This document shows positions 50,094-51,726 of a stretch of 64,000 nucleotides of DNA, in pieces. The position numbers and the translations under genes were made by a program. Numbering within the stretch: position 1 is the first letter of the stretch; every line of letters starts with the position of its first letter. Under the pieces are notes generated by a model. It was not told where the DNA came from and did not search any database. It saw only the letters and a list, made by a program, of their open reading frames with translations. Source of the DNA: Natrinema salinisoli. Lineage in GTDB: Archaea > Halobacteriota > Halobacteria > Halobacteriales > Natrialbaceae. Where the stretch lies: positions 3,596,001-3,660,000 of the forward strand of contig NZ_CP084469.1 of the NCBI RefSeq assembly GCF_020405205.1. The letters run 5' to 3'.

Positions 50094-50197
50094 GATAGTC
50101 GGTGGCTCTGGGTCGCCTCCTCGCTTCCCGAGGCCGTGCTCGTCGTGACTATCGCTACTATCACGTTAGTTGCGACACTCACGATAGTAATGATAGT
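50094..50197. promoter_or_regulatory. Five GATAGT/ACTATC hexamers, four in a symmetric 50-bp dyad
   Basis: ACTATC occurs at 50148 and 50157, and GATAGT at 50183 and 50192, each pair 9 bases apart, so the whole (50148-50197) is exactly symmetric about 50172.5. A fifth GATAGT lies at 50094. The dyad stands about 50 bases upstream of the ATG at 50249 and just before its AT-rich TATA region (about 50217-50226). A dimeric factor binding twice, or a tetramer, is the likely reader. The gene on the other side is aroB', about 196 bases away. Confidence 0.65.
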
Positions 50198-50248
50198 CGA
50201 AATACTTTCTCAGAAATTGATAATATCTGTTCGATCGATCCTTCGGAT

Positions 50249-50833
50249 ATGGGTCAGCGCCACCTCGAGACGGACGCCGAACTGTCGATCGACTGCGCCG
50301 CCCGCCGGCTCGGGGTGGACCCTGCGGCCGAGGTCGCGCGAGCCGCGTTCGACCACGCGGGCGAGCTGGCGGCCCTCGAGTACGGCCGAACGGCGGCCGT
50401 GCTCGGGTCCCTCCGTCTCGCCGCTCGCCGCACCGACGTCGTCGATCTCGAGCGCGAACACCTCGCGGAAGCCTTCGACGTCGATCCCGACGACGTCGTC
50501 GCGGCCGAGGAACTGCTGACGCGGTACCTGTCGCCGCCCGCGGACGCCGCCGAGATCCGCTCGCTGCGACGGACGCTCATCGCGGCCCGGGAAGTCCTGG
50601 CCGCGGTCGAGCGCGGCCGCGCCGCTGGCCCCGAGCTCCCGGGCTCGCACCTCGCTGACGCCGCGCCCTTCCTGCTCGCTCGCGCGAGCAGCCACCTCGA
50701 CTCTCGCACCGGCCGCGAGTTCCCGGGGCTCGACGCGGCGGCGCTTCGTGCTCACATCGAGCGTCTCGAGGCCGACCTCGAGCACGCTCGACTGGGGACG
50801 AGGCTTTACCTACTGGTCCACGACGCCGACTGA
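50249..50833 (+). CDS. TFB-like protein with a single cyclin repeat
   Basis: A 194-residue protein. Residues ~10-95 align by pattern with the first cyclin repeat of the TFB at 39922: IDCAARRLGVDPAAEVARAA matches IDRMASALGLPTNVRETASV, EYGRTAAVLGSLRLAARRTD matches PGRSIEGVSTACVYAAARQA, and EHLAEAFDVDPDDVVAAEEL matches DEIADVSRVEKNEIARTYRY with nearly identical spacing. There is no zinc ribbon and no second cyclin repeat; the remainder is a helical domain (~100-194). It might modulate promoter recognition or be a divergent relative with another role. Homology is by eye. Start ATG 50249 fits the TATA region. Confidence 0.6.
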   Translation: MGQRHLETDAELSIDCAARRLGVDPAAEVARAAFDHAGELAALEYGRTAAVLGSLRLAARRTDVVDLEREHLAEAFDVDPDDVVAAEELLTRYLSPPADAAEIRSLRRTLIAAREVLAAVERGRAAGPELPGSHLADAAPFLLARASSHLDSRTGREFPGLDAAALRAHIERLEADLEHARLGTRLYLLVHDAD

Positions 50834-50868: not shown

Positions 50869-51726
50869 CTACCGCAGCTCTCCCGCGTCCTCCATGAGCT
50901 TGTGCCGGAACGCACGGTAGGCGTTTTCGCCCCGCTCGGTCAGCTCGACGACGCGCCGGCGGCCGACCGACTCGATCGTGACGTAGCCGTCCTCCGCGAG
51001 GGGCTCGAGGACGTGCGTATCCAGTACTCGAAACGCGCCCTTGTCCTCGCCGGAGCGGTCGTCGGGCGAGCGCCGATCGGCCATGAAGGAGAGCCCGCGG
51101 TCCCGCGCGTACTCGATGAGGTCCTTCTTCTTCGGCGGGGCCGTTCGATCCTCGTGGAACCCCTCCCACGCGCCGGGGTCGGAGAGCAACTCCATGATCG
51201 CGACCTGGTCGCGCGTCGGCGACTCGATCGGGTAGGTCGGCACCTCCTCCATCTCGTCGAGGCCGAACGAAATGGGTTCGGTCGTTCCATCGTGGGCGTA
51301 CTCCGAGGGCTCGACGTAGTAGGCGTGGGCGTCCGTCGAGACGTCCATGCACGCGATCGTCGCCCCGATCGCCGGAATCGTCCCGGCCCCCGAGACGTTG
51401 ACGTACACCTGATCCTCCGCGTGCACGTCGGCGATCGTCGTCACGTCGCCGAGGACGGCGTAGACGTCCGTCAGATCACACTCGCGGATCCGGACCTCCG
51501 GGACGATCGACTCGAGTTCCTCGCGCAACTCATCGTGATACTCGGCCCTCGCCGTCGCGTTCCGCTCGCCGGTTCCACCGTCTTCTCCGTCATTTCTCCC
51601 GTTTCTGCCCGTCCGTTCGTTCTCGAGGAGATAAACCAGATCCGCCCGCTGGGTTCGGATCGGCTCGAGGATCCGATCGAACTCGTAGCCCAGCGGCACG
51701 ACGTGCACTCGCTTGACGACCTCCAT
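50869..51726 (-). CDS. DUF6293 / HFX_2341-type regulator with CARF-like domain
   Basis: A 285-residue protein. The N-terminal ~160 residues are Rossmann-like and resemble CARF sensors: KRVHVVPLGYEFDRILEPIR as the opening, a central EDQVYVNVSGAGTIPAIGAT as the second ligand loop and AYYVEPSEYA as a strand. An acidic linker (~45-65) is inserted. The last ~110 residues form winged helices (DQVAIMELLSDPGAWEG; VLDTHVLEPLAEDGYVTIES; VELTERGENAYRAFRHKLME). This matches the haloarchaeal HFX_2341 family regulators. No cas gene is near, so ligand and targets are open. Confidence 0.78.
   Translation of the reverse strand: MEVVKRVHVVPLGYEFDRILEPIRTQRADLVYLLENERTGRNGRNDGEDGGTGERNATARAEYHDELREELESIVPEVRIRECDLTDVYAVLGDVTTIADVHAEDQVYVNVSGAGTIPAIGATIACMDVSTDAHAYYVEPSEYAHDGTTEPISFGLDEMEEVPTYPIESPTRDQVAIMELLSDPGAWEGFHEDRTAPPKKKDLIEYARDRGLSFMADRRSPDDRSGEDKGAFRVLDTHVLEPLAEDGYVTIESVGRRRVVELTERGENAYRAFRHKLMEDAGELR

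Follow-up and report, generated by a model that had tools for sequence, protein, structure and literature searches.

The window analyzed here, a stretch of 64,000 nucleotides from contig NZ_CP084469.1 of Natrinema salinisoli, contains a gene for a protein that we term half-TFB, a candidate operator in its promoter and a neighboring gene for a regulator with a CARF domain. The features of the locus are as follows:

50148 to 50162, minus strand: a second, inverted pair of GATAGT motifs facing dehydroquinate synthase II, also seen by eye in locus L021 and not in most relatives.
50183 to 50209, plus strand: candidate operator array GATAGTAATGATAGTCGAAATACTTTC, -66 to -40 from the ATG, conserved in place across the upstream alignment.
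50220 to 50225, plus strand: TATA-like ATAATA, -29 to -24, a conserved block of columns.
50249 to 50833, plus strand: the half-TFB gene, 194 aa, a conserved family with dN/dS below 1.
50279 to 50533, plus strand: residues 11-95, a predicted TFB repeat-1-like cyclin domain without the basic helix-5 residues (hhalign, HMM, AlphaFold/Foldseek and charge comparison).
50534 to 50830, plus strand: residues 96-194, a non-cyclin helical module with no match to either TFB repeat.
50735 to 50824, plus strand: residues 163-192, HxxRLxxDLxxARLGxxLY, the most conserved signature, in the last two helices.
50869 to 51726, minus strand: the CARF and winged-helix regulator (HFX_2341_N, DUF6293_C), a near-obligate partner (Pfam, PADLOC CARF3, co-occurrence 74/74).

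Half-TFB starts with MGQRH, which is kept in close relatives, and has a single cysteine. No family in Pfam or NCBIfam matched the protein, its relatives matched nothing meaningful in Pfam, and the homologue on a plasmid of Halomontanus rarus is deposited as a ‘hypothetical protein’. A relative search placed homologues in 20 genome contigs. The gene is present in 74 of the 125 genomes of the host’s family and, within its order, in a small number of genomes from other families, so that conservation in haloarchaea, one of the checks proposed with the original prediction, is borne out. Across an alignment of 38 members with 27-79% identity to the window protein, A30, R61, R172, D176, L182 and G183 are invariant. 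Values of dN/dS between close pairs (0.16-0.51) indicate purifying selection, and together with the breadth of distribution and identities down to 27% they argue that half-TFB is a real gene of a conserved, un-annotated haloarchaeal family. No relatives were found in viral contigs or phages, a PHROGs search yielded nothing meaningful, and the one plasmid match lies on a 0.9-Mb Halomontanus replicon. An in-frame upstream extension (DSNDSNDTFSEVDNI in the conserved upstream DNA) was considered and rejected on account of in-frame stops in four relatives (L029, L031, L033 and L036), so the upstream stretch is promoter DNA rather than coding sequence. The gene is probably leaderless.

The original prediction had matched the first ~90 residues to the first cyclin repeat of TFB, and profile-profile comparison upholds this. 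The N-terminal domain (residues ~10-102) was aligned by hhalign to TFB repeat 1 over 86 columns with a probability of 94%, an E-value of 1.5e-7 and a score of 42.2, vs. a mean of 10.4 and a maximum of 17.7 in 120 column shuffles and 8.7 for the reversed profile. Its score against TFB repeat 2 was 20. With shallow alignments (fewer relatives and fewer TFBs) the match of half-TFB to TFB was weak. An HMM of the half-TFB family picks out divergent haloarchaeal TFBs, each aligned in register over its first repeat (L116, 31.2 bits; L117, 24.9; L020, 22.0; L120, 18.7). A reversed null that included all frames reached 25.8 bits, its top matches coming from loci that carry half-TFB; with the frames that overlap the half-TFB gene taken out, no reversed ORF exceeded 9.4 bits. 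Reciprocally, the only non-TFB ORFs found with a TFB repeat-1 profile were three half-TFB members (weak, E 0.3-0.8) and one frame in a TFB locus.

Structure prediction agrees with the profiles. AlphaFold models of half-TFB have mean pLDDT values of 82.5 and 86.0 (pTM 0.81 for the latter), with pLDDT above 90 over residues ~11-110, and the predicted fold is of the cyclin type, not the non-cyclin fold that would have counted against the original prediction: TFIIB/TFB and cyclins stand at the top of the Foldseek list of PDB matches. Pyrococcus TFB (1d3u) is matched over 83-87 columns at 2.6-3.5 A with a probability of 0.98-0.99. No Foldseek E-value falls below 0.001, and the structural case therefore lies in the consistency of the matches. 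A sequence-only PDB search with half-TFB found no TFB, and PF00382 was below detection on the protein. Judged from these profiles and models, residues ~11-95 represent the first cyclin repeat of TFB in a divergent form, and half-TFB descends from TFB, reduced to that repeat. Within the first cyclin repeat of the TFB/TFIIB core (PF00382), the nearest by profile are the divergent haloarchaeal TFBs L116, L020 and L120. Half-TFB and TFB repeat 1 have in common the cyclin fold, the helix order and spacing, the GR... and A-A-R motifs and the L.LP/L.PPA end of the repeat.

Several other frames were encountered in these searches. A 364-aa open frame in L118 and L119, which is not a TFB, scores 15-16 bits against the half-TFB profile, with ~66 positions aligned. 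The host’s own genome has two TFB-like frames of ~201-209 aa (L019 and L020; contig C2, 204178-204717 and 266953-267492) that are divergent and retain both cyclin repeats with no in-frame zinc ribbon; they are possibly truncated or shifted frames. It also has frames of 108 and 133 aa (C2:240945-241169 and C1:1604645-1604875) with a single TFIIB repeat above the Pfam cut-off, either fragments or other half-TFBs.

Much of TFB is missing from half-TFB. There is no zinc ribbon, the part of TFB that docks RNA polymerase: the protein has one cysteine and begins at the cyclin repeat, and relatives have stops upstream. Nor is there a second cyclin repeat with its BRE-binding helix-turn-helix, as the C-terminal half scores 8.6 against repeat 1 and 14.9 against repeat 2, and its helix pattern in the AlphaFold models differs from that of the second repeat. 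The B-reader region is likewise absent, and an extra helical module is present. The original description of one cyclin repeat, no zinc ribbon and then a new helical domain is supported by profiles, structure prediction and conservation. By membership half-TFB is not a TFB, given that the zinc ribbon and second repeat are absent, yet it is a TFB descendant.

The first repeat itself has changed in charge. In a joint alignment, helices 4-5 read SRVERKEIGRTYRY in TFB repeat 1, and the half-TFB equivalent is like FDVDPDDVVAAEEL; basic helix-4/5 residues of TFB are acidic or neutral in half-TFB. The mean net charge of helix 5 is -3.3 in half-TFB vs. +0.5 in TFB, with 1.1 vs. 3.8 lysines and arginines. 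In TFIIB/TFB complexes the helix-4/5 region lies near the DNA downstream of the TATA box, so with the basic helix-5 residues lost, half-TFB is unlikely to compete for promoter DNA. This bears on the further suggestion of the original prediction that the protein could compete with TFB on TBP-DNA, in which case half-TFB would repress initiation by taking the place of the TFB first repeat. Such a role would be in keeping with the shared fold and first-repeat ancestry, but the helix-5 basic residues are now acidic and the BRE-binding second repeat is missing, and we consider direct competition improbable. The other role suggested there, a bridge to further factors, may apply and comes near the model favored below. 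Neither the CARF partner nor the operator array had been noted in the original prediction.

In the C-terminal module, helices 100-121 and 163-192 are confidently modeled by AlphaFold and the middle has a pLDDT of ~60-65. R172, D176, L182 and G183, four of the residues invariant in the 38 members, lie in the signature of the last two helices. A decayed second cyclin repeat was considered for this half and rejected as unsupported on the hhalign scores given above, although Foldseek alignments do extend across the two halves, superposing poorly (rmsd ~15 A). Three ORFs elsewhere match the C-terminal module only (L121, 2953-3222, plus strand, 28.4 bits; L186, 1908-2270, minus strand, 19.2 bits; L187, 1254-1664, plus strand, 19.6 bits). 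These encode small haloarchaeal proteins of ~80-100 aa, perhaps a stand-alone form of the module, with no Pfam family above the cut-off; plasmid relatives were sought for two of them and none were found.

Beyond the 3′ end of half-TFB lies the CARF regulator, which matches PF19810 (7e-42) and PF22665 (5e-33) in Pfam and CARF3 in PADLOC (1e-101) and has a strongly conserved NVSGAGT loop. With its CARF domain, winged helix and loop it resembles the HFX_2341/Csa3 regulators. Csa3a is a structural relative of HFX_2341 of Haloferax mediterranei, a widely conserved transcriptional regulator that acts as a global repressor (PMC11434293). Unlike HFX_2341, the partner belongs to a patchy orthologue group that tracks half-TFB, in genomes without Cas10. 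Within the family, orthologues (E <=7e-89, at least 62% identity) were cleanly separated from paralogues (E >=1e-58, at most 49% identity). Among the 125 family genomes, 74 have both genes, one (G079) has the regulator beside half-TFB fragments and 50 have neither (Fisher p 2e-34, not corrected for phylogeny). The two genes are usually tail-to-tail, and 68 of the 74 pairs lie within 1.6 kb; in four pairs of one genus (g24) they are 254-438 kb apart on the same contig, and both are kept. The pair is absent beside present in at least five genera, the host’s own included. It is found in a second family as well (L114, L115, L140 and L185) and, among unrelated, catabolic genes, on the Halomontanus rarus plasmid. 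Exceptions are a half-TFB of another family without a regulator orthologue at the threshold used (L113, G325:C2:636228-636749) and a regulator without half-TFB nearby (G233/L184).

This distribution bears on two further explanations. In most loci, those of another family included, half-TFB is divergent from dehydroquinate synthase II, which would fit a regulator or partner of that enzyme in aromatic amino-acid biosynthesis. However, L073, L074, L081-L085 and the plasmid locus keep the CARF gene with no synthase within 3 kb, and all 17 of the pair-less family genomes examined keep the synthase, with the array left only as a relict in one (G068). In pair-less genomes of mixed genera, the synthase is usually directly followed by a HAD gene. 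An aromatic link was accordingly rejected as the main function and is, in our estimation, very improbable; the constant companion of half-TFB is the CARF regulator, not the aromatic pathway. Patchy presence, joint loss, the CARF partner and the rarity of half-TFB without the regulator might instead suggest a toxin-like or defence module, in which half-TFB would shut down host transcription once infection triggers the regulator. Against this, inheritance is vertical and mostly syntenic, PADLOC gives no match for half-TFB, and the viral and phage searches returned no relatives. The genes are convergent, form no operon and are sometimes hundreds of kilobases apart, rather than the linked, co-transcribed pair of a toxin-antitoxin system. 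CARF ligands usually come from Cas10, and Cas10 (PF22335) was found in none of the 125 family genomes, so the usual ligand source is missing. We therefore give a defence role little credence.

The half-TFB promoter carries the array, composed of 9-bp units (GATAGTAAC GATAGTANC GATACTTTC) with weaker units further upstream. No further copies with up to three mismatches occur in the host’s own genome, where the promoter copy is the only one, and no units were seen by eye in an alignment of the DNA upstream of the regulator, at its own promoter. Taken together, the final two units come close to a palindrome of 18 bp, GATAGTANCGATACTATC, a form of site that would fit a winged-helix protein binding as a dimer. 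Csa3a sites, too, are palindromes of 18 bp located immediately upstream of BRE/TATA (PMC8699464), and the half-TFB promoter has its palindrome-like site in the same place. Weight-matrix searches found the array absent from the G325 locus, which has half-TFB without the regulator, and present in G233/L184, the reverse case, ~110 bp past the regulator’s stop codon. In G068, of the host’s genus and with neither gene, a relict array persists beside dehydroquinate synthase II (L124:2844-2870), so this genome has lost the two genes; their place is now taken by an unrelated lipoprotein-like gene. The array is not recognizable in G079 with its decayed half-TFB. These comparisons show one conserved predicted operator in the genome, at the half-TFB promoter.

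Half-TFB may serve the CARF regulator as a cofactor or anti-factor, the two binding each other; half-TFB would then assist or impede the regulator at the operator and so feed back on its own promoter. Co-occurrence that is near-perfect even for unlinked genes would be expected of such partners, and specific, high-affinity DNA binding by Csa3a probably needs additional factors (PMC8699464). Feedback would nonetheless be the whole of the system, with no other output, if the sole operator is at the half-TFB promoter; moreover, half-TFB occurs without the regulator in G325, and the regulator persists without half-TFB in G079 and G233. We hold this explanation to be unlikely, though considerably less so than a role in competition or defence.

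We favor, tentatively and with somewhat less than even confidence, a two-gene circuit in which the CARF regulator controls how much half-TFB is present, and half-TFB in turn works on the basal machinery through protein contacts, in the manner of Sulfolobus TFB3. The ligand sensed by the regulator would be a small molecule, probably a nucleotide; the regulator would bind as a dimer to the GATAGTANC array, immediately upstream of the half-TFB BRE/TATA, thereby setting the amount of half-TFB made. Half-TFB would then contact RNA polymerase and/or TFB-TBP complexes through protein rather than promoter DNA and shift initiation, the role proposed for TFB3. With the sole array of the genome located at its promoter, half-TFB itself should be the output of the circuit.

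TFB3 is described as a TFB paralogue with no DNA-binding domain; it is reported to interact with RNA polymerase and, together with TFB1-TBP-DNA, to stimulate transcription, and the promoters of tfb3 and of further UV-inducible genes have an A(N)TTTC element at -44 to -39 (PMC5817253). By description the DNA-damage-inducible TFB3 and half-TFB are alike, the latter also being TFB-derived with DNA binding apparently lost. Half-TFB has ACTTTC at -45 to -40, again just upstream of BRE; this likeness may be chance, since position -42 frequently has A in place of T. Half-TFB differs from TFB3 in being haloarchaeal and in having a CARF partner and a C-terminal helical module.

Several lines of evidence converge on the circuit: the TFB repeat-1 homology with loss of basic, DNA-contact-type helix-5 residues; the 74/74 pairing, which is kept when the genes are unlinked, in a second family and on a plasmid among unrelated genes; and an operator that is fixed in position, unique in the genome, absent from G325/L113, where the regulator is missing too, and present beside the regulator in G233/L184, which has no half-TFB. 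The mechanism would follow the precedents of Csa3a and TFB3. On the other side, G079 has the regulator and no recognizable array, half-TFB is without the zinc ribbon of TFB, so that polymerase binding is only putative, and Cas10 is absent.

Archaeal TFB paralogues have a known role as alternative initiation factors, and CARF proteins have mostly been studied with type III CRISPR. We found no paper describing half-TFB in the open-licence literature, where a one-repeat TFB that is under selection and tied to a dedicated CARF partner is, as far as we found, undescribed. The near-constant joint inheritance of the two genes suggests an undescribed two-gene switch on the transcription machinery. The CARF regulator is retained in genomes that have no Cas10, and a single target promoter is predicted for it, so its ligand and logic are testable with a single reporter. 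It is possible, if somewhat doubtful, that a ligand-sensing CARF regulator and a half-TFB that reprograms the basal machinery by protein contacts alone make up a second-messenger pathway without type III CRISPR. If true, the pair would be an example of a general transcription factor domain recycled into a regulator, and of a second-messenger pathway with a degenerate general transcription factor as its output.
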